This document shows positions 3,911 to 40,637 of a DNA stretch of 42,303 nucleotides, in pieces. The stretch's first letter is position 1. The number at the start of each line of letters is the position of its first letter. The DNA is from a virus, in IMG/VR virus record IMGVR_UViG_3300032050_012656, positions 1-42,303 of that record. One strand, given 5' to 3'. The translations under genes were made by a program, and so were the position numbers. Under the pieces are notes generated by a model that saw nothing but the letters and a program-made list of their open reading frames with translations, was not told where the DNA came from and did not search any database.

Positions 3911-3911
3911 T

Positions 3912-4481: not shown

Positions 4482-4503
4482 CCCTCACATACAGGACATT
4501 TAT

Positions 4504-11047: not shown

Positions 11048-14000
11048 ATGAGTAATATAATACCTCTCACGGAAGCAGAAGCACTTTCTTTAGAAACTGC
11101 TAACGAGATTCCTCCAAATTACGTTAGAATACGTACCACGTTGGGTGGATGGGTGTGGGTGGACGAACAGCGATATCCTCAACTAGCAAACAATTATAGA
11201 ACAGGTGTATTAACCGGTGGTGAAGCAGCACCTGCCGGTGTCTACCTACGTGCATTACCACCCGATCGAACTCCACAATCGCAAAGTGCCAGTATACCAC
11301 CCAATCAAAATACGTCAAGTACAAACACATATAATAACACGGTCACAACAACTGCAGTATTAAGAAGCAAAATTAAGGTCAATCTAACATATCCTATTAA
11401 AATAAGGGTTAATCCTGAAGTAACGGCACGGCAAACGGCAAATGTTCAGTACCAGTTTCAATTAAAAGTAGATTTAATTGATGTGAACATTTCTCAGCCA
11501 CTGATAAGTGCATCATTTGATTTCTTAAACGCTGCAATTAGAAATTATATAGATGAGGAGCGTGAACTTAAGACATTATTAAACTACGGTGACGATAAAC
11601 AGACAGTAGTGGTTGCACAGCGATATGGTCAACGAGATTTAAATACCGTAAATACTATTCAATTAAAATTATTGCAACCAATTCCCGACGAAATACAGAC
11701 ACAGACACCTGTGTTTTTGAGTAGAGAAGTTGCAAAAACAGTAATTGATAAAATTAGAGTACGATTCCCTCCACAGATAGATACAACACCATACTTAAGA
11801 CCAAAAAATTTAGGAGTAGCAACAGACTTTAGTCTCGGTAAGAGTTTAAACAATGTTACATTAAAATTATTATCACTGCAAACGGGTTCTGTAGGTGCAG
11901 ACGACCTATATAAGAATAAAACGTTTGAGGACGAAATATTCAGAAAGTGGTACTCATACGACTTTGACTCCGCAGAACTAAATCTAGATTTTACAGACTA
12001 TAATAAGTTTGTTTTTTATGGCTCTGCAACAATGCGTTTGCAGGCATTTAGAGAAAAATTAAAACTTATAGAAAACATCGAATATAACAGACAACAGTTT
12101 CTATCGTCATCTGTATATTCAATGCAAACATCTTCTGCTGCAGCAATTTTTATTCAAGATAAGAGTGCGCAATATGCGCTGGAAAAAGAAAACATCATTC
12201 GTTCATTTGATAGATATGAACAACACTTATACTTCACATCGGGGTCTACACTGCCATATACAGCATCTGCGTGGTATGCAGATACTGGAACGGAATTTAA
12301 TTCTTCGTCATATTGGCCAAAAATAGGAAATGTGATTGCACCAGTGTATAGTCCTGAAGTAGAGGAGTGGTTTAGTACACAACTTGAAATTGCACAACGA
12401 TACGATGAATTTAATGAAAATAATTTAATTAATACTATTCCAACGCACGTACGTGAACATGAGGAAAATTCTCCTTATATCACTTTTGTGACCATGATAG
12501 GACATTTCTTTGATACATTAAAACCATACGTTGATCATTTCCCATACATATACGACCGTGGTCTGGACCCAAATCAAGGATTATCGAAAGATTTAATCAA
12601 TGAAATTGCAGAAGCAGTTGGATTTACTATGCCAACGGTTAATTCAATATATAATCTTGCCGATAATATTCTTGGAACTTTAGAGGAAGAACCTCGTCGT
12701 GACATTACGGCAGAAGTGTACAAGCGATTGTTACATAACTTACCGTTCTTCGTAAAATCCAAGGGCTCCAGAACATCGCTATTAACTTTAATAAAAACAT
12801 TAGGCTTTAAAAATTCATTAGTAACTGTACGAGAAACTGGTATAGCAAGTTCAGGCTCATTTTATATTTTTGACGAAAATTCGACGGGATTGTATTTTAG
12901 TGCATCAACTGCAGTGAGTTCAAGTACAACGTCATCAATGATGCCGTATATACAAATTCCAATGCTGAACAATCCAGAAACATTACAACTGAATTTGGCA
13001 TTGGATACCAATAAAATTACAACTATCATCAATAGTAATAATGGATGGGAGTTATTAGCCGTACCTCATCCATCTATACCAAAAATTGGTAGACTTGAAT
13101 TACGTAATACGTCTGGGAGTTCTTCAATAATTACTAATTACGAAGAAATATTTGATAATGAATTATTCAATATTGCATTACGTAGTACTGTCGATGAAAC
13201 AAGTTTACGTTTGATAAAAACTGAAGGCGATGATATATTATTCGATTCATATACAACTGAATCTGTCACATTCAATTCGGCTTGGCAAAATACACAGACG
13301 ATATATCTCGGTGGTATAGGTACACTGTACGGGAATTCTTCATTCGTAGGTACTATCGATGAGTTCAGACTATGGAATGATTCTGTTTCTGATGAAATGA
13401 TATTAAATACTGCCTTTGATCCAGGTTCAAATGCAGGAGATACATATACGTCGGCAGTTGAAAACCTACTGGTACAACTGTCATTTAATAAGATTGATAC
13501 CGATCTACTCGTATCAAGTTCATTGTTATTAAATGAGACTTCTGTACCAATTAATCAATTATTACATGTATCTGCGTCAAACATATCAACGGGAAGTATT
13601 GCACGATTTAATAGAGTTATTCGACAGCTAGTGCCCACGGTTGGAACGACATCATATATATCTAATAAAATAAAATTATTGGAGTATCCTAGTAATGTAA
13701 CGGATGTAAATGGAGTCAAACGGCTCTATCGTTCGAAGAGTTTACTAAATCAAAAAAATAAAAAAGTTAGTAGAGGTAAGAACAGAGTAGTTCTAGCAAA
13801 CTGCCCAACAGAAATTGTAAATCAGAATATTATACGTAATTTTGGTATAGAAAATATAAATACTGCATTAGGTGTACCAACAACAACGTATAAAAATTTC
13901 GAACGTTCACTAGAACGACTAAAAAATTACTATAATAGATATTACTATGTGGATGTAGATGTAAATCAATATATCCGAATACTATCGGAAGTATCTTCGG

Positions 14001-15736
14001 TACTAGATCAGGTAGTTGATTATTTTATTCCGTCACGCGCAGCAACCTTAAAAGGAATAGTAATTGAACAATCAATACTAGAACAAACTAGAGTACCCGT
14101 AGTACGTGAGACACGAGTTTACGGAAATAACTCTAGAAAAACCTTACAAGCGGTTGGTTCGTTGACTGGTAGTAGACCTGATTATAGTGCAACGTATACC
14201 GTTTCTGGTTTAGTTGCACCCGAACCGGAAACTACGGCAAAATATACGTTGCTACAAGCAGAAATGGAAAGTACACCAGTTATCACAGCCACAACATCAT
14301 TACTGACATCTTCGGTGGACGTAACGGAAAATGTGATACTTGCAGATATGCAAGACATAAAGGGTGCAATACTTACTATCGATGAAAATGTACTAGTAAG
14401 TAATTATACTCCTATTAATGGTACCATCGAATCACGTTTCTATGACATGAATAAGATTCCATACAATGATAATAATTATGGGTCCGTGGGCGCTGAACCA
14501 TTTGATAGAATCTATCCGAGAAAATTATTAGGATTGGAAATCGAAAAAGACCGTAACGGTGGGACGAGAAGTATATATTTACCGGCATTATATGATATAC
14601 CACCAATTGCGGACTTCAGAGACTTGGGAGTATACACATTCTTCAATCATCCAGAAGGAGTGTATAAATTTCCAGTAATTAAAAAACGTGTTGCATATAT
14701 TCGTCCGTTAAATCAACAGTGGAATTATTCTACACAACAATTTGAAGGAATTACAACGTGGTCATTTGGTACATCATACAATTTAAACGATGTTGTTGTA
14801 CAAGAAGTCAAAGTAAGTGAAACTAGTAGTTTAAATTTACAAGTTATTTTAGATGCCCGTGCCGGTAATAAAAAATATTATGCGTTCAAAACTCGACCAT
14901 CATATACAGCCCCAGTCGATGGTACACGATTCTATTCGGGTAGCGTGCCATCCTATCTACCCCCTTCGTTAGATAAAGATAATTGGGAAGTGGTGCGGTT
15001 TACGCCGGAATTTGATTATCAACCTCGTCGTGTGGTATTTGACACATTTACGGTACCAGACCCGGTATTGACCAACTATAAATTAACTAGCGTTGAACTA
15101 GAGTCTGCAATTGATTTTCCGAATAGATTCGTGGATAATTATATTATACAAAATATATCTGGAAATTCTTTTATGACCGGCCAAATCATATTACAAAATA
15201 TTGCCGCATTGTTGGCAATTCAAGCAAATACTGCCGGTATCCGAGTACGATTGTATAGAACTCCGGAGGCTAGAGATACAGACATATACCGTCCCGTAAC
15301 ACAGGCACCTAATATTGACGACGGTGTACTCGTAGACCTTTCTATAGATGAAGAAAATACTGCACAAATAATAAATCCTATTGTGACATTGGTATCCGAC
15401 AGTTCGTTGTTGGAAGGTAAATTATATTATACTATAAATAACTTAACCCCTGCGGAGAAGATAGGATTTGTCTTGTCAATGTATTATTTTGCAATACAAA
15501 TTCAACGGCGCGTACCATTTGGTTATTTGAGAAAGCATTATAGATATTTTAGAGATAATTCAACCTCTATCAAACGACGAAATTATTTGGGATGTAAAAA
15601 TACTATTGATACTACAATTGATGGACTTTCTCCCATCCAAGTATTCTTGAGTGAAGGAACTGATTTAATTGTGGCCCCAACTCAAACGAACGAAGAAATA
15701 ATTACTGGCGGTGGAGGACAACTAAATGTTACTTAA
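11048..15736 (+). CDS. Giant baseplate wedge protein, gp7 / tail-protein-I-like, with LamG-like insertion
   Basis: This 1562-aa protein is the largest in the window. The segment at about residues 475-600 (FFDTLKPYVDHFPYIYDRG, LSKDLINEIAEAVGFTMP, DITAEVYKRLLHNLPFFVKSKGS, LLTLIKTLGF) follows the pattern of phage tail protein I/gp7 wedge proteins. Residues about 615-785 look like a LamG/concanavalin-like jelly roll, ending with the typical FVGTIDEFRLWNDSVSD strand. A helical YYYVDVDVNQYIRILSEVSSVLDQVVDYFIPSRA segment (about 955-1000) resumes the tail-I-like part. The C-terminal module (about 1370-1510: VRLYRTPEARD..., YYTINNL) recurs in the fibre at 28686. In T4 the gp7 wedge connects hub to periphery. 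The LamG domain would add a sugar-binding surface. Gene number 7 is plausible but not proven. Confidence 0.75.
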   Translation: MSNIIPLTEAEALSLETANEIPPNYVRIRTTLGGWVWVDEQRYPQLANNYRTGVLTGGEAAPAGVYLRALPPDRTPQSQSASIPPNQNTSSTNTYNNTVTTTAVLRSKIKVNLTYPIKIRVNPEVTARQTANVQYQFQLKVDLIDVNISQPLISASFDFLNAAIRNYIDEERELKTLLNYGDDKQTVVVAQRYGQRDLNTVNTIQLKLLQPIPDEIQTQTPVFLSREVAKTVIDKIRVRFPPQIDTTPYLRPKNLGVATDFSLGKSLNNVTLKLLSLQTGSVGADDLYKNKTFEDEIFRKWYSYDFDSAELNLDFTDYNKFVFYGSATMRLQAFREKLKLIENIEYNRQQFLSSSVYSMQTSSAAAIFIQDKSAQYALEKENIIRSFDRYEQHLYFTSGSTLPYTASAWYADTGTEFNSSSYWPKIGNVIAPVYSPEVEEWFSTQLEIAQRYDEFNENNLINTIPTHVREHEENSPYITFVTMIGHFFDTLKPYVDHFPYIYDRGLDPNQGLSKDLINEIAEAVGFTMPTVNSIYNLADNILGTLEEEPRRDITAEVYKRLLHNLPFFVKSKGSRTSLLTLIKTLGFKNSLVTVRETGIASSGSFYIFDENSTGLYFSASTAVSSSTTSSMMPYIQIPMLNNPETLQLNLALDTNKITTIINSNNGWELLAVPHPSIPKIGRLELRNTSGSSSIITNYEEIFDNELFNIALRSTVDETSLRLIKTEGDDILFDSYTTESVTFNSAWQNTQTIYLGGIGTLYGNSSFVGTIDEFRLWNDSVSDEMILNTAFDPGSNAGDTYTSAVENLLVQLSFNKIDTDLLVSSSLLLNETSVPINQLLHVSASNISTGSIARFNRVIRQLVPTVGTTSYISNKIKLLEYPSNVTDVNGVKRLYRSKSLLNQKNKKVSRGKNRVVLANCPTEIVNQNIIRNFGIENINTALGVPTTTYKNFERSLERLKNYYNRYYYVDVDVNQYIRILSEVSSVLDQVVDYFIPSRAATLKGIVIEQSILEQTRVPVVRETRVYGNNSRKTLQAVGSLTGSRPDYSATYTVSGLVAPEPETTAKYTLLQAEMESTPVITATTSLLTSSVDVTENVILADMQDIKGAILTIDENVLVSNYTPINGTIESRFYDMNKIPYNDNNYGSVGAEPFDRIYPRKLLGLEIEKDRNGGTRSIYLPALYDIPPIADFRDLGVYTFFNHPEGVYKFPVIKKRVAYIRPLNQQWNYSTQQFEGITTWSFGTSYNLNDVVVQEVKVSETSSLNLQVILDARAGNKKYYAFKTRPSYTAPVDGTRFYSGSVPSYLPPSLDKDNWEVVRFTPEFDYQPRRVVFDTFTVPDPVLTNYKLTSVELESAIDFPNRFVDNYIIQNISGNSFMTGQIILQNIAALLAIQANTAGIRVRLYRTPEARDTDIYRPVTQAPNIDDGVLVDLSIDEENTAQIINPIVTLVSDSSLLEGKLYYTINNLTPAEKIGFVLSMYYFAIQIQRRVPFGYLRKHYRYFRDNSTSIKRRNYLGCKNTIDTTIDGLSPIQVFLSEGTDLIVAPTQTNEEIITGGGGQLNVT

Positions 15737-19571: not shown

Positions 19572-20459
19572 CTTCTCCAAGAACTATTAGGTAGTTATAT
19601 TCAACAAAAGGACGAGTATTTATTTACTTGTCCTTTTTGTTCACATCCAAAAAAGAAATTATCAATTAATATTTTAACCAACAAATGGAAATGCTGGGTG
19701 TGCGGTAGTAAAGGTGGACATATTATTTGGTTATTAAAAAAACTAAATGTTGCCAAAGCGTTACTACAAAAATTTAAAGAAGAACTAGGTGAAGTAGAGA
19801 TTCAGAAGTACAAAACTACCACAGTAGAAACAACATTACAGCTGCCATATGAATACAAACCACTGTGGAAAGTAGAAAAAAATTATTCATATTACCACGC
19901 AATTAGTTACTTAAAACAACGAGGAATTACCGCAAATGACATTCTACGATACCGTATCGGATTTTGCACAGAAGGCCCGTATGCTAATCGAATTATACTT
20001 CCTTCATATGATAGGAACCATCAGCTCAATTACTTCACCGCCCGACTCTTCTACGACGAAGGAATGAAATATAAAAATCCACCTGTGAGTAAAAACATTA
20101 TATGTTTTGAAAATATGGTGGATTGGAATGAACCAATAATTTTATGCGAAGGGATGTTTGACGCAATCACATTGCGTAGAAATGTGATTCCATTACTTGG
20201 CAAAAATATACCAAAGGTATTAGAAAAGGCCTTGATTGAACATCATGTTAAAGATGTTATTATTTTTCTTGACGAAGATGCACGAACCGATGCGTTAAAG
20301 TTAGAACGACGATTATTGACACATAATATAAATGTTCGTGTAGTTTTTACACAAGGTAAAGATGCAAGTGATATGGGATTTGAACAAGCGTGGGAAGAAA
20401 TTTCTTATGCCAAGCAAACAAATTTTAAAGAATTTATTACGCACGGGTTATTTAAATGA
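19557..20459 (+). CDS. DnaG-type DNA primase (zinc ribbon plus TOPRIM)
   Basis: This 300-aa protein begins with a zinc ribbon, C25-P-F-C28...C46-W-V-C49-G, followed by KGGHIIWLL, as in DnaG-type primases. The catalytic half shows the TOPRIM glutamate in IILCE198GMFDAI and the metal-binding acidic triad D239-E-D241 in VIIFLDED. Between them RIGFCTEG and NRIILPSYD fit the RNA-polymerase-domain fold. It would make RNA primers for lagging-strand synthesis, the role of gp61 in T4. It is shorter than bacterial DnaG because there is no helicase-binding C-terminus. Its stop overlaps the next start (ATGA). Confidence 0.88.
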   Translation: MMILTLLQELLGSYIQQKDEYLFTCPFCSHPKKKLSINILTNKWKCWVCGSKGGHIIWLLKKLNVAKALLQKFKEELGEVEIQKYKTTTVETTLQLPYEYKPLWKVEKNYSYYHAISYLKQRGITANDILRYRIGFCTEGPYANRIILPSYDRNHQLNYFTARLFYDEGMKYKNPPVSKNIICFENMVDWNEPIILCEGMFDAITLRRNVIPLLGKNIPKVLEKALIEHHVKDVIIFLDEDARTDALKLERRLLTHNINVRVVFTQGKDASDMGFEQAWEEISYAKQTNFKEFITHGLFK

Positions 20460-23400
20460 AAATAAATGTTCCATTTACAAAATTACGACATATTGTACAT
20501 CTAGCAGATATTCATATTCGATTGTTTCGTCGTCACGAGGAATACGAACTTGCATTCGAACGACTGTATAGTGACATTCGTTCGAAGCAACTAGAAGATT
20601 TCGTCATCGTATTAGCCGGCGACATCGTTCATGCAAAGACGGACATGAGTCCAGAAATGGTTGAAATTACCTCTCGTTTCTTGAAAAATATTGCAGATAT
20701 TGCTCCAACGATTTTGATTGCCGGTAATCATGACTGTAATTTAGCAAATACTAATCGTATGGATGCATTGACTCCACTAGTGAATAATCTCCAGCACCCA
20801 CAGTTATATTATGTTAAGGATTCTGCAATTGTAACAGTGGCCGATACACAGTTTGCTGTCATGTCTATTTTTGACGAGCATGATACGTGGCCAGTTGCAA
20901 CAGAACTAAACACTCCACATAAAATTGCATTATATCACGGACCAGTTCATGGTGCTGTGACTGATGCAAACTTTACGATTACAAACCGTCATGTAAATAT
21001 TTCTACATTTGATGGATTTGATATGGTATTACTTGGAGATATTCACAAGCCGTCGCAGGTTCTTAAAGAACGTAATCCAATTATCGTGTATCCTGGTTCA
21101 CTTATTCAACAGAACCACGGCGAAACACTGGACCCACACGGGTGGTGTTTGTGGAATGTTGCGGCACGGTCATTTGAGTTTGTCCCATTAGAAAACGATT
21201 ATGGATATGTAACACTTGAAGTATATAACTCACGTATTACATACCCATCGAACATGCCTAAGAATGCTAGAGTGAGATTGTTCACGGGAGATATGGATAC
21301 TACGGAAGTTAAGAAACTCATTACAACACTTCGTAATAAGTACAACATCATCGAAATGTCGGTCAATAAGAATAGAAAGCCGTCAAACGTGAACACAAGT
21401 ACAATTCAGTCACATGATATATTAGATTTAACAAACGTTTCGTTACAGAATACGTTAATCAATGATTGGTTGGCACAGAAATATAGTACGTTGGATGATA
21501 CTGTATTGAAAGCAATAGAACAAATTAATAAAGATTTGAATTCCAAAATTGTTCATGATGACCAATCCCGAAATATTCATTGGCGCCCACTACTCTTTAA
21601 GTTTTCTAACATGTTTTCATACGGGGAAGATAATGAAATTAATTTCTCTGACATGAAAGGATTGTATGGAATTTTTGCTGCAAATGCCTCTGGAAAGAGT
21701 TCTATTATGGATGCACTCATGTTTTGTTTATACGACAAGACCCCGAGAGCATTTAAGGGTGACCATATTCTAAACAATCGTAAAGATTCATTTACCTGTG
21801 AACTTGCCTTTGAAATTAATCATGAAACGTTTGGTATTAAACGCGTCGGAACTCGTAAGAAAAATGGCGATGTAAAGGTAGATGCCTCGTTCTGGAAGAT
21901 ATTACCCGATGGAAGTCAGCAGAATTTAAACGGAGAAGACCGTCGTGATACGAATGCTAATATTCGTTCATATGTCGGAACCTATGAAGATTTTGTCATG
22001 ACTGCGTTGAGTAGTCAGAATAGTAATGCGCTCTTTATTGACAAGTCACATTCTGAACGGAAAGACCTACTCATTCAGTTTATGGGATTGAATATCTTTG
22101 ATAAATTATTTGATGCTGCACATGATGAAGCAAAAGAAATCACGGGCATTCTCAAACGGTTTAAGAAGTCTGATGTAACAGACCAACTGGCGGACGTGCA
22201 TCAAAATCTTGTAAAAGTCACCGATAGAATTGATGAATTTGAATCGGGGAAGGAAACGTTTGTACAGACATTATCAGATATAGAAACCCAGTATAAGGAG
22301 AAATATGCAACCAAGCGACCGGTTCCAGAGACTTCGGGTAATTGGACTGACTTACAAAATAGATTAGTAACTACTGAAAAGAAATTAAAGACTGCTCAGG
22401 AAGATGTTGCTATTGCGGAATACGCATTAATTTCCAGTGAAACCGATTTGAAGGAAGCCACCACACATTTCAATGATTATGATATGGTTGCCTTACAAGT
22501 ATCATTTGACAAGTGGAATGAGTTAAATGAGTTGTCTAAGAAGAAAAATAATAGTATTCGTGTATTGAATACTAAGATTCAAGAAAAGACATTGTTTAAG
22601 ACAAAATTGGAAGCATATAAGTATAATCCAAACTGTGATGTCTGTGTAGAAAATAATCGTTCTGTTATTGAAGACGTTAAGTTGACCAACGAAGAGTTAG
22701 ATAACTTGTATGCTGAACGAATTATTGAGGAAGATGCAATTCGAACTATTGCTACGGAATGTTCGGAACATGCGTGGAATAAAGATTCTTACGAAGAAGC
22801 ACTTGTTCTCAAAAAGGAATTAGTGGAACTTGGTCAAGAAGTGGAAAAATCAAAAAACGTATTAGTTACCGCAAAAAATACCTTGGAAAAGGTGGAAATT
22901 TCGTTGGGTAAGATTCATGATGAAATTTCGGTATACAAGACGAATGAAGAAAATATTCTACACAATCAGACGGTCGAGAAAGAACTACAAGTAATACATC
23001 GTAATATTGCAGATACCAAACAAAATATTGCCAATATAGACAGAGAACTTCGTTTATTACACGGTGACCTATCTGTACTTAATGCTAAGAAGACTGAGTT
23101 AAAAAATAAATTGAAAGAGGCTGAAGAACTGGAAATTACGTATGAAGCATATAATCATTATATGCTGGCAGTTGGTCGTGACGGGGTGCCATATGATTTG
23201 ATGAGTAAAGCAATACCAAATATTGAAGCAGAAATCAATAATATCCTATCTCAGATTGTTGACTTTTCGGTGTCACTTGAGGTGGATGGAAAGAACATTA
23301 ACGGAAAATTATCATATGATAACGATCGGATATGGCCACTTGAAAACAGTTCAGGTATGGAACGATTTATCACTAGTTTAGCAATCCGAGTTGCTCTACT

Positions 23401-23620
23401 GAACGCAAGCAATCTTCCGAAGTCCAACATGTTTATTATTGACGAAGGATTTGGGGTACTTGATGCCGACCATCTTCATTCTATGCAAATATTGTTTAAT
23501 TTACTTAAATCTCATTTCGACACTATACTTATAGTAAGTCACTTAGATACAGCAAGAGACATGGTAGACAACCTCATAGAAATTAAAAAAGAGGATGGAT
23601 ATTCCAGTGTATCTATATAA
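20456..23620 (+). CDS. Single-chain Mre11-Rad50 (SbcD-SbcC) fusion, T4 gp47-gp46 equivalent
   Basis: This 1054-aa protein encodes both subunits of the recombination nuclease in one chain. Residues 1-330 are the Mre11/SbcD/gp47 phosphoesterase: D18-x-H20, G55-D56-x-x-H59, G90-N-H-D93, YHGPVHG and G194-D-x-H197. From about 385 the Rad50/SbcC/gp46 ATPase follows: a P-loop at 405-416 ending N-A-S-G-K414-S-S, a long coiled coil with a zinc-hook C727-D-V-C730, the ABC signature S965-S-G-M-E, and Walker B FIID996-E997. In T4 gp47 and gp46 are separate proteins that process DNA ends for recombination-dependent replication. The gene overlaps the primase stop by 4 nt. Fusion is a direct reading of an uninterrupted frame. 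Confidence 0.92.
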   Translation: MKINVPFTKLRHIVHLADIHIRLFRRHEEYELAFERLYSDIRSKQLEDFVIVLAGDIVHAKTDMSPEMVEITSRFLKNIADIAPTILIAGNHDCNLANTNRMDALTPLVNNLQHPQLYYVKDSAIVTVADTQFAVMSIFDEHDTWPVATELNTPHKIALYHGPVHGAVTDANFTITNRHVNISTFDGFDMVLLGDIHKPSQVLKERNPIIVYPGSLIQQNHGETLDPHGWCLWNVAARSFEFVPLENDYGYVTLEVYNSRITYPSNMPKNARVRLFTGDMDTTEVKKLITTLRNKYNIIEMSVNKNRKPSNVNTSTIQSHDILDLTNVSLQNTLINDWLAQKYSTLDDTVLKAIEQINKDLNSKIVHDDQSRNIHWRPLLFKFSNMFSYGEDNEINFSDMKGLYGIFAANASGKSSIMDALMFCLYDKTPRAFKGDHILNNRKDSFTCELAFEINHETFGIKRVGTRKKNGDVKVDASFWKILPDGSQQNLNGEDRRDTNANIRSYVGTYEDFVMTALSSQNSNALFIDKSHSERKDLLIQFMGLNIFDKLFDAAHDEAKEITGILKRFKKSDVTDQLADVHQNLVKVTDRIDEFESGKETFVQTLSDIETQYKEKYATKRPVPETSGNWTDLQNRLVTTEKKLKTAQEDVAIAEYALISSETDLKEATTHFNDYDMVALQVSFDKWNELNELSKKKNNSIRVLNTKIQEKTLFKTKLEAYKYNPNCDVCVENNRSVIEDVKLTNEELDNLYAERIIEEDAIRTIATECSEHAWNKDSYEEALVLKKELVELGQEVEKSKNVLVTAKNTLEKVEISLGKIHDEISVYKTNEENILHNQTVEKELQVIHRNIADTKQNIANIDRELRLLHGDLSVLNAKKTELKNKLKEAEELEITYEAYNHYMLAVGRDGVPYDLMSKAIPNIEAEINNILSQIVDFSVSLEVDGKNINGKLSYDNDRIWPLENSSGMERFITSLAIRVALLNASNLPKSNMFIIDEGFGVLDADHLHSMQILFNLLKSHFDTILIVSHLDTARDMVDNLIEIKKEDGYSSVSI

Positions 23621-28685: not shown

Positions 28686-31511
28686 ATGGCAGGAATTATT
28701 GTAAAAAGTAACCCAACATCAGGTTCCACACCAGATCCACAATATTTGGCAGTCGGAGAATTAGCATTTAATTCTTACGATGGCCGGCTATTCTCTAAAA
28801 AACATAATGGTGAATTGGTATTACTGAATTACAAGCCAAATCCAACTGCCTCTATTGCGGACACAGCAAATTCTTCTTCATACGCATTAACTGCCTCGTA
28901 TGCGTTGAATGGCGGTGGCGGTGGAGGTGGTCAAGCAATTTATACGAAATATGACCCATTTGCTCCACCGACAAATCCGTCGGTCTTAAATGATGAGTTT
29001 ACCGTCAGTGGTAGTGGAATTCCATCGGGATGGACTTTGGCAACTGGCAGTGGAACAGTTACAGTATTGAACGGACGGTGTATCATAACTCCACTGACTG
29101 GTTCGGGGGACAACCCTACTGCCATAGAAAAAGTTTTACCTACTGGAGGTTTTACAGTACTTACTAGAATGGAACTTTTAGGGAAAAATACATATCATAA
29201 TTCTGCAATATACTTGAGAGATACGGTTAGCGGAAAAGTTACAGTCTTCAGAATTTTTTGTGGACCGAGTAATGATATTCGACTATTAAATACACAAGTT
29301 TTAAGATATAATAGTTTTACAAGTTTCAATTCAATTTCATATGAAGGTGGTGCATTTTCACCGACAGTATTTCATAGAATTGATTTTGATGGAACTACAT
29401 TATACTTTGCACGTTCGTTTGATGGTGTTGAATATGATATATTATTTAGTGAACCTGCTTCATCATGGTTTAGTACTCAACTCCCAAACCGCGTTGGTAT
29501 CTGTGCATCAACGATAAATACTTCAGTTGGCTGTAAAGCAGTATTTGATTTTTTCAGACATTCTTCCACACCATTTGCAGACCTCGGTCGAGAAGTTGGG
29601 GTTGGTTCAGATGGGAATGGTTCTACACAATCTAATGCAATTTCATCTAGTTGGGCATCCAGTTCAATCAGCGCAAGTTATGCAACAACTGCATTAACGG
29701 CATCGTTTGCTTTGAATGGTGGTGGAGGTGGTGCACCAATTAACACGGGTTCGTTTGCAACCACCGGTTCAAATATATTCATTGGAAATCAGACAATTAC
29801 GGGTTCGTTAACATTGTCTAGTAGTTTACCGGTAGAACTACGAGTTATCGGTGACACAGAAATTACCGGATCGTTAAGAACTTCTGGATTAAGCGTAGTC
29901 AGCGGTTCACTGGCCATATCCAGCCCAAATACATTAGTATTGGGTAGTCAAATATTTTATCCGCAATCAAGTAATGGGTTTAGTGTTAATGAAAACTTTG
30001 ACCCAAGTAATGATTCCAATCAAGTGGCATACCACTTTACTACAGGTACTTCGGCAAAAACCAGTGTAGTGTTTGGTTTAGCAAGAACAAATAGATTTAC
30101 CAGCTGGTTCGGGGTTACTGGGGATGTTTCAAATAACCAATTTGTTATTGGTTCAGAATTTGCCGGAACTGATTTTGAATTTAGAAGTAATCTTGGTATA
30201 CGTCCCGTTCAATTACAAGGTGGTAACTTATTGGCACGAATTACCAGAACGGGTCACGTATTAGCAAATGCATTTACCAGTTCTTTAGTAAATCAAGTTG
30301 GATTTTTAGGAACGAGTAGTTGGGCACGAAATAGTGCAACAGCAAGTACAGCAACTTCTGCTGCCACGGCTAGTCTATTACTGGGTTCAATCGAAAGTGC
30401 GTCATATGCAGCAACTGCTAGTGTATTATTAGGGTCTGTTCAAAGTGCGTCATATGCAGTAACGGCATCATTTGCATTAAATGGCGGGACTGGGGGAGGA
30501 AGTAGTGTTAGTGCAAGTTGGGCGTCGAGTTCTATTAGTGCAAGTTTTGCAACAAGTGCGTCATTTGCAAACACAGCAATAACATCAAGTTATGCACTAA
30601 CATCGTTATCTGGAATTACGGTTAATCTAACTGGAAGTACTGTCGGTGTGAATGTATATAGGTCGGCAAGTTTAACATTAACAGATAACAATTTGAACTA
30701 CATTCCGTTTACTACGGAACGTAGAGATGATTTGAATTTCTGGGATATAAGTGACCCAACAAAATTAATAGTACCAAATGGGGCAGACGGGTGGTATACA
30801 ATATCGGGGTATTGTCACTGGAACGCCAACACTGGCTTAGGTAGAAGAATATCGATTGTAGTAGATGGGACCGAAACGGTTGGGTATAGTTCTACTGTTG
30901 CATATTTTGAACACAACGACCCGGGTACACATGCGGGCGCAGTGGTATATCTAACGTCGGGTAGTTTTGTTCAACTAGGTGTTAGTGAAAATGACGGTGA
31001 CAACGTTCCTATAAATGCAAGTGCAAGTATTGGAATGGTGCGAATTGGGTCATCTACAAACGTTCCTTCTGCAAGTTTTGCAACAACGGCTTCATATGCA
31101 TTAAATAGTAATCAGTCACAAACTAGTTTGAGTAGAGGGACGGTTTCGGCAAATGTTGCAAGTATATCACCAAATCAAAATTACACCGGAAGTATTTCTC
31201 TTGGAAAAACGTTTATGTTACTTTCTACCCAAGTAAATACCGACGTGCGCCTTAGATTATATGGTTCTCAATCATACGTAAACAGTGATTTAACTCGACC
31301 AATCGGAACTGACCCTGCAAATAATTCTGGAATCATAACCGATTTGATTCTAAGCGGTTCTCCGGCGTTATATAATTATACATTGTCCCCTATAGCAAAC
31401 GGGGCAAACATGGATCCAGTGACGGTATCAACTATATATTATACAGTAACCAATCTGTCTGGAACTACCACTGACATTTCCATGTCATTCAATCGAATTG
31501 TGTTAGAATAA
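28686..31511 (+). CDS. Large tail fibre with ASYAL repeats, C1q-like head and wedge-like C-terminal module
   Basis: This 941-aa protein opens with GIIVKSNPTSGSTPDPQYLAVGELAFNSYDGRLF, a fibre-attachment pattern seen in many phage fibres. Low-complexity ASYALTASYALNGGGG-type segments occur at about residues 60-80, 310-345 and 545-620, separating beta-rich blocks. Residues about 655-790 resemble a C1q/TNF-like jelly roll (YIPFTTERRDDLNFWDISDP, WYTISGYCHWNAN, RRISIVVDGTE). The C-terminal about 125 residues (VRLRLYGSQSYVNSDLTRPIG, IYYTVTNLSG) match the C-terminus of the giant wedge protein at 11048. It would be the main long fibre or receptor-binding protein. Confidence 0.75.
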   Translation: MAGIIVKSNPTSGSTPDPQYLAVGELAFNSYDGRLFSKKHNGELVLLNYKPNPTASIADTANSSSYALTASYALNGGGGGGGQAIYTKYDPFAPPTNPSVLNDEFTVSGSGIPSGWTLATGSGTVTVLNGRCIITPLTGSGDNPTAIEKVLPTGGFTVLTRMELLGKNTYHNSAIYLRDTVSGKVTVFRIFCGPSNDIRLLNTQVLRYNSFTSFNSISYEGGAFSPTVFHRIDFDGTTLYFARSFDGVEYDILFSEPASSWFSTQLPNRVGICASTINTSVGCKAVFDFFRHSSTPFADLGREVGVGSDGNGSTQSNAISSSWASSSISASYATTALTASFALNGGGGGAPINTGSFATTGSNIFIGNQTITGSLTLSSSLPVELRVIGDTEITGSLRTSGLSVVSGSLAISSPNTLVLGSQIFYPQSSNGFSVNENFDPSNDSNQVAYHFTTGTSAKTSVVFGLARTNRFTSWFGVTGDVSNNQFVIGSEFAGTDFEFRSNLGIRPVQLQGGNLLARITRTGHVLANAFTSSLVNQVGFLGTSSWARNSATASTATSAATASLLLGSIESASYAATASVLLGSVQSASYAVTASFALNGGTGGGSSVSASWASSSISASFATSASFANTAITSSYALTSLSGITVNLTGSTVGVNVYRSASLTLTDNNLNYIPFTTERRDDLNFWDISDPTKLIVPNGADGWYTISGYCHWNANTGLGRRISIVVDGTETVGYSSTVAYFEHNDPGTHAGAVVYLTSGSFVQLGVSENDGDNVPINASASIGMVRIGSSTNVPSASFATTASYALNSNQSQTSLSRGTVSANVASISPNQNYTGSISLGKTFMLLSTQVNTDVRLRLYGSQSYVNSDLTRPIGTDPANNSGIITDLILSGSPALYNYTLSPIANGANMDPVTVSTIYYTVTNLSGTTTDISMSFNRIVLE

Positions 31512-33615: not shown

Positions 33616-36600
33616 ATGAAAGAAGAAAACAATCCGTACGATTCACCCGATTACGCATTAAGTGGGTTCACTGGAGCCTTTAAGAAAGTACCACCGCCGG
33701 AAGATAAGGAGGTACTTACAAAACGTTTTGCAGACTTGGACCCAATAGAAGAGGAAAAGTCCAGTACGGAACGTGTGCGTAGATATTATAAAAGACATCC
33801 AGAAAAAGTTAGAAAATATTTACGTGATACGCAAGATGATAGAGTCCAACGGAATCGTGATCGTGCAAAAGCAGTAAAAAAACACGGAAAAGCTAAAATG
33901 AAAAACCATGACGTTCATCATCCAGATGGTCCTGGCAACGGTTGGCGTTTAGCAAAAAAAGATCATGGTCGAGATAAAAAAGACGGAAGTCCGCCGGAAC
34001 CATCGACCAAGAAATCTACACCGTCAAAAAAACCCGAAAAGAAAACTACTGCGTCTACACCAAAAAAATCAACTAAAAAGTCTACACCAAAGAAACCATC
34101 GGCGGTAAAACGTCGTACACCGTCGAAGCAAGATGCCATCAAGAAAAGTATTGCTACATTTGTTCTGTATGCAATGAAACAGTTGGAAATTACTGACAGA
34201 CCAACATTTGTAATTATTGAACCTACGAAAGACATGATGAGTTTGGGTCATTATAATCCAAAACTAAATAAGGTTGCAGTAGTCGTAAAAAATCGTTTAT
34301 TAGCAGACATTTTACGTACGCTTGCACATGAATTGGTACATGTCAAACAAATGCAAAACGGGCAACTAACAACCCCATCAGTAGATACTGCAACGGGTTC
34401 GCCAATTGAAAATGAGGCAAATGCACTTGCAGGAGTATTGATGCGTAATTATGCAAAGATGAATAAGAACATCTTCCTTTCCGAAGGATTAATCGTGGAA
34501 GGAGGTGCTGCAGGACATTTAGCACACCCGTTTGAAGACGAAGATCTTTCCTTTGCTGACATGAAAGAAATGATTAATCGTGGATTGTTAGGTGGATTAG
34601 ACCAAGAAGCACCTGTCACCGAAAAGTTAGATGGGCAAAATATTGCATTTACCGTGCGTGATGGGCAAATTGTATTTGCACGTAACAAAAGTCATGTAAA
34701 AAATCGTGGAAAGAATGCATTAGATGTGGCAGGTATTCGTCAAATGTTTTCTGGGCGTGGCGGAATTGAAAAGGCATTTACTGGTGCCGCAGAAGATTTG
34801 CAGGCAGCAGTAGAAAGAATGACCCCTGAACAAATTCAGCAAATGTTTGGAAGTGGTTCTAAGTTCATGAGTTTGGAAGTTATCCTCCCAGATACACAAA
34901 ATGTCATTCCGTATGGGAAAAGTGTCTTGGTCATGCATGGAACTATCGAATATGATGAAGACGGAAATGAAATTGGTCGGTCAACAACCGATGGAAAGGA
35001 ATTTGCTGATGCAGTTACTGCGGTTGGAGCAGAACAACAAAAAACATTTGGTATTAGCGGTCCAAAAACTATTGTATTCAGTGATGCCGAAACAGAGACG
35101 TATCAACAGAAAGCTGAAGACTATTCTGGTCGGTTAGATAGAGTTGCTCAAGAATTTGAATTAGATGACAAAGCTACCCTAGCAGATTATCGTCGTGCTT
35201 GGTGGGAACGTGAACTTACTCAACAAATGCAATCTAAGGGAATCGAACTATCCGAGAAGGAATTTAATGGGTTAGTAGATCGTTGGACAGACGGTAGTAA
35301 AAAATTTGGGGTGAAAGATATTGAGAACGACGAAACCAAGAAGTGGTTTAGAGAGTTTGAGAAAAATGAATTAGCACAAAAACAAAAGGCAATGATTAAG
35401 CCGATAGAAACTACTTTCTTACAAGTCGGAACTGACTCATTGCGGAGAGTTACCAACTTCTTATCATCGAATAATCCAGAGGCCAGTGCCCAGCTCAAAC
35501 GGGACGTGCTGGAAGCCATTAAAGCAATCAGAGATAGTGACCAACCAGATAAGATTGCTAAGCTACAGAGGGAATTAGAACGTCTGGAGGGTATGGGAAT
35601 TGATAACATCGTCCCATCGGAAGGTGTGGTATTTATTTATAACGGGAAACCCTATAAGTTTACCGGACAATTTGCTCCTATAAATCAAATTACGGGAACA
35701 TTTAAGTTTGGAATGGCTCCAAAAGAATCGGAAGAACCAAAAACACCTGAACTAACTGATATAAAAGATGTGGCGTCTAAATTAGAATTTAAACCAACCA
35801 CAAAACAAGCAAAACAATATGCACAAGGCAATGACATAGGAGATGCCTCAGACTTAGAAGGTATGAAACCGATGTCGTTTGCAAAAAATACCGTTGACGG
35901 ATTGAAAGTTGTTACGGTGACAGCTGATGGTAAAGAAACTGAAAATGTGGCAGAAGTAGGCGACATTATTATGTCTGGACCGTCCGGCGAGCAATATGTG
36001 GTCAAGGCAGGTAAATTTGATAAATTGTATGCTGATGGACCAAACGGAACAAAAATACCTGAACAATCTCCTCGACAAGTAGCGGCATATACGGGAACTG
36101 AAGACATTACATTTACGGCTCCGTGGGGTCAATCAATGGTGATGAAGCCAGGTGATTATTTAGTGAAAGATGGTGATGGATATTATCGTGTTGCAAAACA
36201 AGAATACGAACAAACATACAATCCACCGGGTACCACGGAAACAGAACCTACGGCAGCAGAACCAACGGAACCCTCAGCAGAAACTCCACCAAAACGAACT
36301 ATTGCAATCTTTACGGGTCGATTCCAACCGTTCCATGCCGGTCATTATAGTATTTATGAAGGATTGGTGGAGAAATTTGGGAAAGAGAATGTATATATAG
36401 CTTCTAGCGGTAAGACGGATGCTATTAAATCACCATTTGAGTTCAGGGACAGACAAGAAATCATGACCCGAATGTTTGATATTCCGGAAGAGATGATTGT
36501 TCAAGTTAAAAATCCATATGCACCTGTGGAAATTCTAGAAAAAGTACCTGAAGATACTACGTATGTAACCGCAGTCAGTCAAAAGGACTCGGAACGTTTA

Positions 36601-37812
36601 AGTGGCGGTAAATACTTTAGAAATTTTGATGATGTACCGGAAGAAGAACGTAAAGGATTTAAAGACCAAGGATATTTTATTGTTGCACCAGAAATGCAAT
36701 TGTCAATTGACGGAAAAAATATCAGTGGAACACAACTTCGTGCCGTAATGGGTGACCCACAAATTACTGACCGTGCAAAACAAGAAATTTTCACAAAAGT
36801 GTATGGAAAGTTCGACCAAAAAATCTTTGATAAGATTGTAAAAACAACAACGGAATCGGAAGAAGCCAGAAAACTAACTGCTCAGCACGGTGAACCAACA
36901 AAACGTGGTAAGAAAAAACCAGATGAAAAAGCAGTAAAACGTGCCAAGTCGGTATTGCGACAACGAGTTGAAAACCCCGACACTGGTAGAAAAATTTTAG
37001 TTGCTACAGCATTAACGTATCCAAAAGAACATTCGGCTAGAAAAGCAGCAGAAGCATTGGTGCAAGCTGCAATGCAACAGAATGAGACAATGTTGATGGA
37101 AAGTAAATCTAGTTCTGAGAATTTAAAAGTCTATATATATGTGAAAGAACATACAGAAGAAGAATTGGAACATGAAATTGACGAGTATTTCAAGAACGAA
37201 CGAACGTTAAAAGCATTTCCAAATCTAGCAGATTCTTCATATGAATTAATTGATATGATTAAAAAGGCACCTGCCGAAGTGTTAGATATAAACGAATTAA
37301 AAGCATTAGAAAACAGTGACGTTGGTGATATTTTAAGTGGGAAAAATAAAACGCAAATTCTAAAACAAATGATTGGTAATAAGAAGGATGTTACGGGATT
37401 GTTAACAGATATTAAAGCAAAGAAACCAATTTCCATGCCAGTTGTTATTAAACATGTAAGTGGCTATTATTTGTTGGGTGGAAATACACGATTATCGGTA
37501 TTAGCATCACTGGGACATACGATGCCGGTAAAAGTACTCGGGAGAGCAGCACCATTCGATGCACCTATCTCCGTATATCCTGCTAAAAAAGATGGAAGTG
37601 CGTCAAAGAAAAAAGTAAACGCAAATACATTATTTAAATCGTTATTAAAAATGCGTATTACAAATCCAGAAACGGGTAACGAAATTAAAATTGACACGGC
37701 AATGGATTATAACAAAGAACATCCTGCACACAGAGCAGCAATGGCTGTTATTCGTCAAAGAATGCGTGGATTATCAAATAGAGCAGGTATACCAAAAAAC
37801 AGACAAGACTAA
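33616..37812 (+). CDS. Multi-domain protein: HNH-like motif, HELVH metallopeptidase, ligase-type adenylyltransferase, NadM-like nucleotidylyltransferase, ParB-like domain
   Basis: This 1398-aa protein carries several enzyme-like parts. Residues 85-115 contain DVH101H102-x-DG-x(2)-N, HNH-like. A Lys/Pro/Ser/Thr linker spans about 118-175. At 238-242 H-E-L-V-H with E267 downstream fits a zinc metallopeptidase. Residues about 325-700 have covalent nucleotidyltransferase motifs: K337-L-D-G-Q-N (motif I), SLE421V, E669-G-V-V (motif IV) and YK681F (motif V), with a long helical insertion. Residues about 893-1060 have GRFQPFH907-A-G-H910, SPFEFRDRQEIM and I1036-S-G-T-x-L-R, as in archaeal-type NMN adenylyltransferase. 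Residues about 1270-1300 show GGNTRLS, ParB-like. Two copies of a [RV]-x-NP-x-TG...KEH motif (1117-1141, 1347-1371) flank that domain. It has its own promoter-like octamer. Function is unknown; possible polyprotein. Confidence 0.8.
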   Translation: MKEENNPYDSPDYALSGFTGAFKKVPPPEDKEVLTKRFADLDPIEEEKSSTERVRRYYKRHPEKVRKYLRDTQDDRVQRNRDRAKAVKKHGKAKMKNHDVHHPDGPGNGWRLAKKDHGRDKKDGSPPEPSTKKSTPSKKPEKKTTASTPKKSTKKSTPKKPSAVKRRTPSKQDAIKKSIATFVLYAMKQLEITDRPTFVIIEPTKDMMSLGHYNPKLNKVAVVVKNRLLADILRTLAHELVHVKQMQNGQLTTPSVDTATGSPIENEANALAGVLMRNYAKMNKNIFLSEGLIVEGGAAGHLAHPFEDEDLSFADMKEMINRGLLGGLDQEAPVTEKLDGQNIAFTVRDGQIVFARNKSHVKNRGKNALDVAGIRQMFSGRGGIEKAFTGAAEDLQAAVERMTPEQIQQMFGSGSKFMSLEVILPDTQNVIPYGKSVLVMHGTIEYDEDGNEIGRSTTDGKEFADAVTAVGAEQQKTFGISGPKTIVFSDAETETYQQKAEDYSGRLDRVAQEFELDDKATLADYRRAWWERELTQQMQSKGIELSEKEFNGLVDRWTDGSKKFGVKDIENDETKKWFREFEKNELAQKQKAMIKPIETTFLQVGTDSLRRVTNFLSSNNPEASAQLKRDVLEAIKAIRDSDQPDKIAKLQRELERLEGMGIDNIVPSEGVVFIYNGKPYKFTGQFAPINQITGTFKFGMAPKESEEPKTPELTDIKDVASKLEFKPTTKQAKQYAQGNDIGDASDLEGMKPMSFAKNTVDGLKVVTVTADGKETENVAEVGDIIMSGPSGEQYVVKAGKFDKLYADGPNGTKIPEQSPRQVAAYTGTEDITFTAPWGQSMVMKPGDYLVKDGDGYYRVAKQEYEQTYNPPGTTETEPTAAEPTEPSAETPPKRTIAIFTGRFQPFHAGHYSIYEGLVEKFGKENVYIASSGKTDAIKSPFEFRDRQEIMTRMFDIPEEMIVQVKNPYAPVEILEKVPEDTTYVTAVSQKDSERLSGGKYFRNFDDVPEEERKGFKDQGYFIVAPEMQLSIDGKNISGTQLRAVMGDPQITDRAKQEIFTKVYGKFDQKIFDKIVKTTTESEEARKLTAQHGEPTKRGKKKPDEKAVKRAKSVLRQRVENPDTGRKILVATALTYPKEHSARKAAEALVQAAMQQNETMLMESKSSSENLKVYIYVKEHTEEELEHEIDEYFKNERTLKAFPNLADSSYELIDMIKKAPAEVLDINELKALENSDVGDILSGKNKTQILKQMIGNKKDVTGLLTDIKAKKPISMPVVIKHVSGYYLLGGNTRLSVLASLGHTMPVKVLGRAAPFDAPISVYPAKKDGSASKKKVNANTLFKSLLKMRITNPETGNEIKIDTAMDYNKEHPAHRAAMAVIRQRMRGLSNRAGIPKNRQD

Positions 37813-37821
37813 GAGGTTATT

Positions 37822-38412
37822 ATGGCAGACCATGAAGCAATTAATAATGTGCGACGAAAAATTAATGAAGTAATGAAAAAGACCGACGAACGTATTGTAG
37901 TCGGGTGGCGTCCAGGATTAAGTGAAACTCGTAATGAAGGCGATGTATGGGAAGATTTGGATGGGAAAAAGTGGACGGTTAAAAATGGTGTAAAACAAAA
38001 TGTTACCAAACTAGATTTGGCAAAAACGCCATGGTTCTGTCCTCAATGTGATAAAGCTATGGGACATCGCCTTGATACCAAATTTTGGATGATGCAAGGT
38101 AAATGTATGGATTGCGTCATTAAAGAAGAAACAGAAATTCGTCTGCAAGGAAAGTGGGATGAATATGAAAAGAGTAAATTACAAAAAAATTATGTAGCAT
38201 CATTACGTGACCATATTAAAGAATTACAGCATTATCATGATACGGTAACTTCTCCGTCATTTGTTCATGCCGATGAAGAACGAATCCTAATGATAGAGCA
38301 ATGGAATGTGGACATTGATAAGATAAAAGAAGATCTTAAAAAGGATATTCAAGAATTAACTGCTCATCTTTTAGAATGTGAGGCGCAAATGAATGACGGA
38401 AAAAATAATTGA
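37822..38412 (+). CDS. Zinc-ribbon protein with coiled coil, function unknown
   Basis: This 196-aa protein has an N-terminal part with DERIVVGWRP and GDVWEDLDGKKWTVKNG. A likely zinc ribbon follows, C73-P-Q-C76-x(18)-C95-M-D-C98, with WFCPQCDKAMGHRLDTKFW between strands. The C-terminal half is a long charged helix (about residues 100-190). Comparable zinc-ribbon proteins lie near the terminase gene in marine T4-like phages, as I recall, without known function. A start from ATG 37822 follows an AAGAGG Shine-Dalgarno. Its last 20 nt overlap the next gene. A packaging or DNA-binding accessory role is possible only by position. Confidence 0.68.
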   Translation: MADHEAINNVRRKINEVMKKTDERIVVGWRPGLSETRNEGDVWEDLDGKKWTVKNGVKQNVTKLDLAKTPWFCPQCDKAMGHRLDTKFWMMQGKCMDCVIKEETEIRLQGKWDEYEKSKLQKNYVASLRDHIKELQHYHDTVTSPSFVHADEERILMIEQWNVDIDKIKEDLKKDIQELTAHLLECEAQMNDGKNN

Positions 38413-39055
38413 AGCAACTCGTAAACTATTGAAAGAATTTGTCAAGTTGTCACAACTATCTCAAATAGTGGTGGCTGTGGTGCTAACAATCTTTGCATTT
38501 AGTATGGGACAATGTGAGAGTGATTCTAAATTAAATAAATTTAGAGCAGAATTTTCGATGTTACAAGAACAGGCCGAAAAAACAAAACAATTTGCCGATT
38601 CTGCAAAAACCGAAGTGGTAAGATTGTCAAATGAATCGAAGCAAAAAGATGCTACTATCACAAAATTGTCGTTAAAAGTAGAACTTGGAAACCAAAGTCG
38701 TGAACGACTACGGGGAGAACTTAGCGTACTGGAAGATAGTCTAGAAAGTGCAATGGATACCGCACAGGTCGTTCAAATACAAGAAGGTATTATTTACAAC
38801 TTAAAAGACCAATTAGAAACTGCGGAATGTACTATTACGACTCAGCGTGAAATAATTACAGCACAACAATTTAAAATTACAAAATTGGATAGTGCAATAG
38901 CATTAACAACTCAACGCGGTGATAGTTTACAAAACGTAGTTAATAACTTAATTAATATGCCAAAACCACCCCGCCAATGGATTAGTAAGAAAACTGCTGG
39001 AATTGTTGCATTCACCGCAGGTGTGATTGTTGGGGATAAATTGGCAAGGAGATAA
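38393..39055 (+). CDS. Membrane-anchored coiled-coil protein
   Basis: This 220-aa protein has a transmembrane helix at about residues 22-39 (SQIVVAVVLTIFAFSMG), followed by a cysteine. A long coiled coil (about 45-190) follows, with regular hydrophobic spacing and many K, E and Q residues. A second hydrophobic segment (about 199-215: KTAGIVAFTAGVIVGDK) precedes a basic ARR end. Such topology resembles i-spanins or phage membrane tethers, but i-spanins usually lack the second hydrophobic segment. It overlaps the zinc-ribbon gene by 20 nt and its stop precedes the terminase start by one base, so it is co-translated with packaging genes. Role unknown; spanin-like function is a guess. Confidence 0.62.
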   Translation: MTEKIIEATRKLLKEFVKLSQLSQIVVAVVLTIFAFSMGQCESDSKLNKFRAEFSMLQEQAEKTKQFADSAKTEVVRLSNESKQKDATITKLSLKVELGNQSRERLRGELSVLEDSLESAMDTAQVVQIQEGIIYNLKDQLETAECTITTQREIITAQQFKITKLDSAIALTTQRGDSLQNVVNNLINMPKPPRQWISKKTAGIVAFTAGVIVGDKLARR

Positions 39056-39056
39056 G

Positions 39057-40637
39057 ATGGGACAGGAGTTAAAGGAGTTAATTAAGCAGGAATATAAAAA
39101 ATGTGCAATAAGTCCAGAATATTTTCTATCAAAATATTCGTTCATACAACACCCGGTACGAGGTCGGGTGTTGTTTGATTTATATCATTATCAAAAAAAT
39201 TCTTTAAAAGATTTTCAACAACATGATTATAATATTGTACTGAAGGGGCGTCAGATTGGTATTTCTACGTTAGTGGCAGGATATTCTCTGTGGTTATTGT
39301 TGTTTCACCGAGATAAGAATATTCTTGTTATTGCAACTAAACAAGAAACAGCAAAGAACTTGGTCACAAAAGTAAGATTCATGCATCAAAATCTTCCCGT
39401 ATGGTTGCGTGGACAATGTATAACAGATAATAAACTCTCGTTACAATTTTCAAACGGGTCACAGATTAAAGCCGTGGCAAGTAGTAAGGATGCAGGACGT
39501 TCTGAAGCATTGTCATTGTTAATTCTTGACGAAGCAGCATTCATTGATGATGCAGACATTATTTGGACAGCCGCATCAAGTACGTTATCTACAGGCGGTC
39601 AAGCAATTCTTCTCTCTACGCCAAATGGTATTGGTAATTTCTTCCACAAAATGTGGCAACAAGCGGAGAATAAGGAAAACGGATTCAATCCCATTCTCTT
39701 AGACTGGCGAGTACACCCAGAACGTGATCAAGCTTGGCGTGACCGTCAGACAGAACTCATGGGTGAAATGCAAGCATCACAGGAACACGATGCCTCATTT
39801 ATCTTTTCTGGTAATACCGTGGTCCCACCAGATATTATTGAATTTTATAAAAAGACGTATGTACAAGAACCTATTTCTAAGCAAGGATTTGATGGAAATT
39901 TGTGGGTATGGGAATACCCTGTAGCAGGTAAATCTTATGTTGTTTGTGCTGACGTTGCCCGAGGCGATGGTGAAGATTATTCTACCTTCCATGTCATCGA
40001 TGTAGAAAAATCTATGCAAGTTGCAGAATATAAAGGTAAGGTGGAGACAAAACAATTTGGTAATATGTTAGTGTCTATTGCCACCGAATACAACGATGCA
40101 CTATTAATTCCCGATAACAGTTCTATCGGATGGAATTGCATTCAACAAATTATTGACCGTGGATATCGAAATCTCTTTTATATGTCAAGAGATTTACAAT
40201 ACGTTGATGTCGAACATCAAATAACAAATAGACATTATCGGGATGAACGAAACATGGTTCCAGGCTTTATGATTTCCCAACGCACTCGTCCACTCATCAT
40301 TGCACGACTCAAAGAGTATATGTTAGATAATTCGTTTACGATTCGGTCTGGTCGTATGATGGCAGAATTAGAAACGTTTATTTGGAAGAACGGTCGTCCA
40401 GAGGCATTGCAAGGATATAATGACGACTTGGTATTGGCACTGTGTATTGGATTATGGGTCCGTGATACAGCACTTCGTCTACGACAGGAAGGAATCGAAT
40501 TAACAAAAATGGCATTAGATAAAACGTCATACAATAGTATTCCTCTTGCAATCAAGCAAGGTGGTCTTGATCATAATCCATATGAAATGAAAATTGGTAA
40601 CAATCAGAGCGAAGATATTCGTTGGCTTATAGGATAG
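39057..40637 (+). CDS. 17: Terminase large subunit, T4 gp17-like
   Basis: This protein is 526 aa from ATG 39057, which follows an AAGGAG Shine-Dalgarno; an upstream in-frame start at 39027 lies within the previous gene. ATPase: K63-G-R-Q-I-G-I-S70-T at the Walker A position, the usual lysine before S/T replaced by Ile; ILVIATKQ; Walker B LLILD158-E159. Nuclease: VVCAD299VARGDGEDYSTF, LIPD353NSSIG and GYND456D457LVLA, the RuvC/RNase H-type acidic triad. It would translocate DNA into the prohead and cut the concatemer. The small subunit is not obvious in this window. Function is firm. Confidence 0.93.
   Translation: MGQELKELIKQEYKKCAISPEYFLSKYSFIQHPVRGRVLFDLYHYQKNSLKDFQQHDYNIVLKGRQIGISTLVAGYSLWLLLFHRDKNILVIATKQETAKNLVTKVRFMHQNLPVWLRGQCITDNKLSLQFSNGSQIKAVASSKDAGRSEALSLLILDEAAFIDDADIIWTAASSTLSTGGQAILLSTPNGIGNFFHKMWQQAENKENGFNPILLDWRVHPERDQAWRDRQTELMGEMQASQEHDASFIFSGNTVVPPDIIEFYKKTYVQEPISKQGFDGNLWVWEYPVAGKSYVVCADVARGDGEDYSTFHVIDVEKSMQVAEYKGKVETKQFGNMLVSIATEYNDALLIPDNSSIGWNCIQQIIDRGYRNLFYMSRDLQYVDVEHQITNRHYRDERNMVPGFMISQRTRPLIIARLKEYMLDNSFTIRSGRMMAELETFIWKNGRPEALQGYNDDLVLALCIGLWVRDTALRLRQEGIELTKMALDKTSYNSIPLAIKQGGLDHNPYEMKIGNNQSEDIRWLIG

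Follow-up and report, generated by a model that had tools for sequence, protein, structure and literature searches.

Why a T4-like myophage should carry a peptidase, a ligase-type nucleotidyltransferase and a NadM-like adenylyltransferase in a single chain, and at what point of the infection such a chain would act, is the question raised by the polyprotein gene of the window (the whole 42.3-kb IMG/VR fragment analysed here). The reading favoured with moderate confidence is that its product is a head-core polyprotein, which would be cut by a gp21-type prohead protease and ejected with the DNA, so that enzymes for RNA repair and NAD+ synthesis would be at hand early in infection. What is new here is the observation that cleavage sites of the T4 gp21 type are enriched in the linkers of this protein family and not in its domains.

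Gene and genomic setting

Checking of the ORFs of the window confirmed that the polyprotein gene (33616-37812, plus strand) is one uninterrupted frame of 1398 aa without stops, as had been proposed (Table 1). The identical ORF is found in loci L002 and L004 and a copy of 99.9% identity in L003, while L005-L009 retain the same one-chain architecture at 58-69% identity, with the PGDYG part missing from L008 and L009. Given these copies and the conserved architecture, the ORF is not an assembly artefact as judged by comparison among loci. The genes around it in the window comprise baseplate genes, RusA, a primase, an SbcC/SbcD-like gene and the terminase, and no tRNA genes were found in the 42.3-kb window. 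The large terminase lies just downstream of the family gene in about 100 of 111 loci.

Several other genes of the window deserve mention. The 196-aa protein encoded at 37822-38412, with zinc-ribbon-like cysteines, is represented by a homologue close to the polyprotein gene in 101 loci, and its role is possibly packaging-related. SbcD-like and SbcC-like parts are joined in one 1054-aa frame (20456-23620). For a 1562-aa protein (11048-15736) there is no PHROG match; a stretch of approximately 100 aa close to its C-terminus is similar to the end of the protein encoded at 28686-31511 (29% identity). The protein encoded at 9556-10533 possesses long Pro-Thr repeats and Cys-containing segments.

Table 1. 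Features of the polyprotein gene and its downstream neighbours (window coordinates; ↓, predicted cleavage position)
Feature	Position	Strand	Remarks
Polyprotein gene, 1398 aa	33616..37812	+	near-identical copies in L002-L004
Basic N-terminal module, HNH-like (DVHH), aa 46-123	33751..33984	+	24 homologues; no Pfam match above cutoff
Zincin-like metallopeptidase, aa 166-286, HELVH 238-242, putative third ligand E265	34111..34473	+	
Predicted prohead-protease site 1, LSE290↓G	34483..34485	+	in low-confidence linker of model
Predicted prohead-protease site 2, IVE295↓GG	34498..34500	+	directly before ligase domain
Ligase-like nucleotidyltransferase, aa 296-699	34501..35712	+	motifs I K337-x-DG, III E421, IV E669-G, V K681
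PGDYG domain, aa 740-872	35833..36231	+	Pfam PF14083, 1e-7
NadM/NMNAT-like adenylyltransferase, aa 893-1092, HAGH 907-910, ISGTQLR 1036	36292..36891	+	Pfam PF01467, phrog_395; NMNAT fold/profile matches
Repeat motif NPDTGRKILVATAL, first copy, aa 1103-1149	36922..37062	+	
Predicted prohead-protease site 3, LME1162↓S	37099..37101	+	before ParB-like module
ParB-like module, aa 1172-1320, GGNTRLS 1288, weakly supported	37129..37575	+	
Repeat motif NPETGNEIKIDTAM, second copy, aa 1333-1379	37612..37752	+	
Conserved neighbour, 196 aa, zinc-ribbon-like cysteines	37822..38412	+	homologue in 101 loci
Terminase large subunit	39027..40637	+	downstream of polyprotein family in 100 loci

Domains and predicted folds

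All motifs named in the original prediction were located at the residues expected: HELVH at 238, KLDGQN at 337, E421 (in SLEVI), EGVV from E669, K681 (in YKFTG), GRFQPFHAGH at 901 (H907 and H910), ISGTQLR at 1036 and GGNTRLS at 1288. That prediction did not include the basic, HNH-like N-terminus, the PGDYG domain, the C-terminal motif that occurs twice or the predicted protease sites of the linkers. Pfam searches of the window protein gave CTP_transf_like and PGDYG above cutoff, with M78 falling just below it for the peptidase part (19.5 bits vs a cutoff of 22). The AlphaFold model of residues 166-703 has a mean pLDDT of 90.5, with a low-confidence break at 287-296. Foldseek searches of this model against the PDB matched the peptidase part to PprI/IrrE, abylysin and selecase, and the ligase part to T4 Rnl2, an archaeal RNA ligase, T4 Rnl1 and a fungal tRNA ligase; the matches of the latter are mostly RNA ligases with DNA ligases among them (E 0.013 or weaker). 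As the E-values of both parts are all above 0.001, support comes from the consistency of the matches and not from a single score.

The peptidase part combines HExxH and a conserved third acidic ligand with an IrrE/PprI-like fold; searching PDB profiles with its own profile found nothing. For the ligase part, motifs I (KxDG), III, IV and V are conserved and the fold matches the covalent nucleotidyltransferase superfamily, K337, E421, E669 and K681 lying at or beside strands in the model, as this fold predicts. A long helical insertion separates motifs IIIa and IV, and almost nothing follows motif V, so that no OB domain is seen. PF09414 (RNA_ligase) reached 17.5 bits against the domain, under its cutoff of 27, which places it outside the Rnl1/Rnl2 family proper, and the ligase alignment, searched against PDB profiles, returned chance matches only. 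The nucleotidyltransferase (NTase) part gave NMNAT matches by fold (Foldseek, E 2e-5) and by profile; it possesses HxGH and ISGTxxR in a nucleotidyltransferase fold nearest to NMNATs, and most of its closest annotated relatives in other phages are NMNAT/Nudix proteins of the NadM type, KVP40 NatV among them.

The modelling supports intact zinc-peptidase (IrrE/PprI-like), ligase and NadM-type NTase folds, and the motifs of all three occupy matching folds, in support of these members of the proposed four-part combination. Its ParB member is less certain: PDB profile matches to ParB are weak (0.015 to 0.5), the AlphaFold model of this part is of low confidence and no Pfam ParB match was obtained in the window protein, leaving a weak assignment for aa 1172-1320.

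The ligase family and its architectures

Alignment searches of IMG/VR confirmed at least 553 relatives of the ligase domain. Searches of Pfam and PHROGs for its family found none, and among known phages the domain occurs in three records only, namely Mel-JY01 and two uncultured phages. An alignment of 16 sequences shows no variation in motifs I, III, IV and V, and about 97-104 of 105 proteins possess them, conservation that sets them above chance. The domain represents a new ligase family, large and mostly unannotated, of uncultured phages.

Fusion to an HxGH-class NTase was seen in 61 of the 63 complete homologues (38 with the NTase first, 23 with the ligase first), and no described ligase-NTase pair was found in the literature consulted. 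The proposal that no described protein holds this set in one chain is in line with these results, an already characterised family not having been found and the ligase domain being absent from Pfam and PHROGs. GPHH replaces HxGH in some relatives of the NTase. Optional extra domains in the family are ParB-like, peptidase, P-loop kinase and HAD domains and, once, PolyA_pol (CCA-adding-enzyme type); the HAD domain matches the polynucleotide kinase phrog_415, and the P-loop kinase gives a weak match to phrog_505.

Individual loci show further arrangements. The 1907-aa relative in L111 (835-6555) unites a PolyA_pol domain (CCA-adding-enzyme type) with ParB-like, NTase and ligase domains in a single chain. 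In L122, a standalone HAD phosphatase (3878-4576, minus strand) is encoded between the gp21 and gp22 genes; its homologue in L021-L024 is the HAD domain that forms part of the polyprotein. A divergent ligase-NTase relative (L115, 6016-8427) is located on a candidate division WOR-3 MAG chromosome. The six contigs from a genome scan, mostly MAG contigs, may be phage, and a cellular origin is thus not shown.

Predicted prohead-protease sites in the linkers

The gp21 protease of T4 cleaves after L/I-x-E (PMC9026906). In the phage of the window, both gp21 and gp23 are encoded in a 145-kb contig, the gp21 homologue approximately 10 kb downstream of the polyprotein gene. In 86 of 102 homologues, the linker that leads to the ligase domain has [LI]xE at its end, 13 have Met in place of Glu, and [LI]xE↓[NA] is also present at the site-3 position in L005, L006, L008, L009 and L045. 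Among 47 representatives (<80% identity), [LI]xE[AGSN] was observed 104 times in linkers vs 36 in shuffles (z 12, although z-values overstate independence, as homologues share ancestry), and it was depleted in domains (19 observed vs 69 expected). The linker enrichment persists with 14 (<60%) and 7 (<45%) representatives.

None of the control motifs [VFMY]xE, [LI]xD, [LI]xQ and [LI]xK shows enrichment in linkers. E.[LI] does show it, in part owing to tandem sites such as LSEGLIVE. As a positive control, the first 75 residues of gp23 of the window phage and of gp23 of two other phages contain three [LI]xE-type sites each (9 vs 1.1 expected), while no excess was found in 25 window proteins (20 vs 22.8), the portal or the rest of gp23.

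The original prediction had suggested a virion-delivered or self-cleaving polyprotein. Self-cleavage as the main route was not upheld, the linkers carrying prohead-protease sites. Processing of the chain by the HELVH metallopeptidase that it contains, whether inside the virion or once injected, would suit a zincin-like domain of IrrE/PprI-like fold with HExxH and its third ligand, and self-processing by zincins is a published idea for polyvalent proteins (PMC5512222); yet only 8 of approximately 100 homologues possess the peptidase domain, whereas the [LI]xE linker sites are family-wide and fit a different protease encoded nearby, making such self-processing quite improbable.

[LI]xE also occurs within the first 22 residues of 32 of the 47 representatives (14.7 by shuffling), and the standalone ligase of L028 consists of a short N-terminal peptide ending in [LI]xE followed by the ligase domain. 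No [LI]xE, and thus no recognisable targeting signal, is present near the N-terminus of the window protein itself, which is the main gap of the packaging model.

Proposed head packaging and delivery

The other half of that suggestion, virion delivery, is probable, supported by gene position, cleavage-site statistics and the capsid-targeting-like N-termini of relatives. From its sequence features, the polyprotein is likely a cleaved head component, and ejection of its pieces with the DNA is likely as well, if a little less so. It would be made alongside the head genes and then enter the prohead core, where a gp21-type prohead protease would cut after Glu at the [LI]xE↓[AGSN] linker sites. The predicted pieces are a basic 33-kDa piece with the HNH-like and peptidase parts (1-290/295), a 97-kDa ligase-PGDYG-NTase piece (296-1162), in which ligase and NTase would stay joined, and a 26-kDa ParB-like piece (1163-1398). 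These would remain in the capsid with the DNA and be ejected together.

It is improbable that the protein is instead a cytoplasmic multi-enzyme protein of the ordinary kind, which would be synthesised in the course of infection for RNA repair and NAD+ synthesis and have no place in the virion. Genes for these functions in jumbo phages have been discussed as encoding cell-made enzymes (PMC7824862), and virion proteomics for the polyprotein family was not found in the literature. However, the constant gene position in the head module, the capsid-targeting-like N-termini and a site enrichment like that of gp23 propeptides, absent from non-head proteins, all argue for the head. Indirect evidence for delivery of the window protein may be drawn by analogy from cyanophage cytidylyltransferases. 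One was detected by mass spectrometry in S-CREM2 virions, the authors cautioning of possible co-purification (PMC10665884), and that of S-SRM01, which matches phrog_395 as does the window NTase, begins MKNFHQFITE↓A.

Proposed substrates and purpose

Once in the host cell, the ligase domain would probably seal RNA that host defences have cleaved, while rebuilding of NAD+, or of a related dinucleotide, would probably fall to the NadM-like domain. Both functions answer known host defences, as has been discussed for jumbo phages (PMC7824862). RNA is slightly favoured as the substrate of the ligase domain in view of the polynucleotide-kinase-like and CCA-adding-enzyme-like domains of relatives, and NAD+ synthesis by the NTase, on its likeness to NadM, is given a similarly narrow preference. 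The link originally drawn between adenylate/NAD+ chemistry and nucleic-acid repair is supported.

A ligase acting on DNA, either at nicks or at the ends of the genome in its packaged or incoming state, concerns the substrate alone and is compatible with head packaging. The gene adjoins that of the terminase, DNA ligases are among the Foldseek matches, and the ParB- and HNH-like parts suggest DNA contact, but the best Foldseek matches are RNA ligases, the Pfam hint is RNA_ligase, the accessory modules are CCA-adding-enzyme-like and PNK-type, and no OB domain is seen, with almost nothing after motif V; a DNA substrate is rated unlikely. It is doubtful that ligase and NTase, an almost obligatory pair, form one coupled pathway, in which the ligase would take AMP from NAD+ or another dinucleotide or act on NAD-type RNA ends, while the NadM-like partner, delivered ready-made in the virion, regenerates the donor.

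If head delivery for RNA repair and NAD+ synthesis holds, T4-like phages of a large aquatic family, mostly uncultured, would carry in the head a modular enzyme kit for the opening minutes of infection, the period in which the host's defences cleave RNA or deplete NAD+. The ligase domain would then count as a distinct family, whole enzymes would be among the products that prohead proteases release from a polyprotein, and injected proteins could be sought in metagenomes by a sequence rule, namely [LI]xE in linkers of proteins encoded near terminase.

Comparison with known systems

The window protein resembles the internal head proteins of T4 and Alt, itself an enzyme, which gp21 cuts at either end (PMC5694885), in its head-module gene, in [LI]xE sites outside folded domains, in the T4-type prohead protease of the same phage and in the capsid-targeting-like N-termini of many relatives (a short peptide ending in [LI]xE). 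It differs in having many enzymes per chain with sites between domains and no N-terminal site. The presence of the window protein in the virion is a prediction, and as it lacks the N-terminal [LI]xE peptide it is regarded as working like a T4-type internal protein and not as one of them.

Polyvalent proteins (Iyer et al. 2017, PMC5512222) are likewise large multidomain chains of disparate activities and reshuffled architectures, and the window protein shares with them several disparate enzymatic domains in one chain, a zincin and a possible ParB part. Processing here points to a prohead protease, however, and not to the zincin, and that paper was not found to describe a polyvalent protein with a ligase domain or an NMNAT-type NTase.

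The KxDG, motif III, IV and V residues and the best fold matches are common to the window ligase and the RNA ligases T4 Rnl1, Rnl2 and archaeal Rnl, but the former is too remote for the Pfam cutoff, has the long IIIa-IV helical insertion and is fused to an NTase. With NadM-type NMNATs (KVP40 NatV and phage NMNAT/Nudix proteins) the window NTase shares GRFQPFHxGH, ISGTxxR and fold and profile matches; unlike those proteins, it is partnered by a ligase, no Nudix domain was found in it, and its use of NMN is only predicted. The 'cytidylyltransferase like protein' of Microcystis phage Mel-JY01 (WWT39297.1), although 639 aa long, of opposite domain order and without peptidase, PGDYG or ParB parts, combines an NTase with the same ligase domain (36% identity) and is likewise encoded upstream of the terminase.
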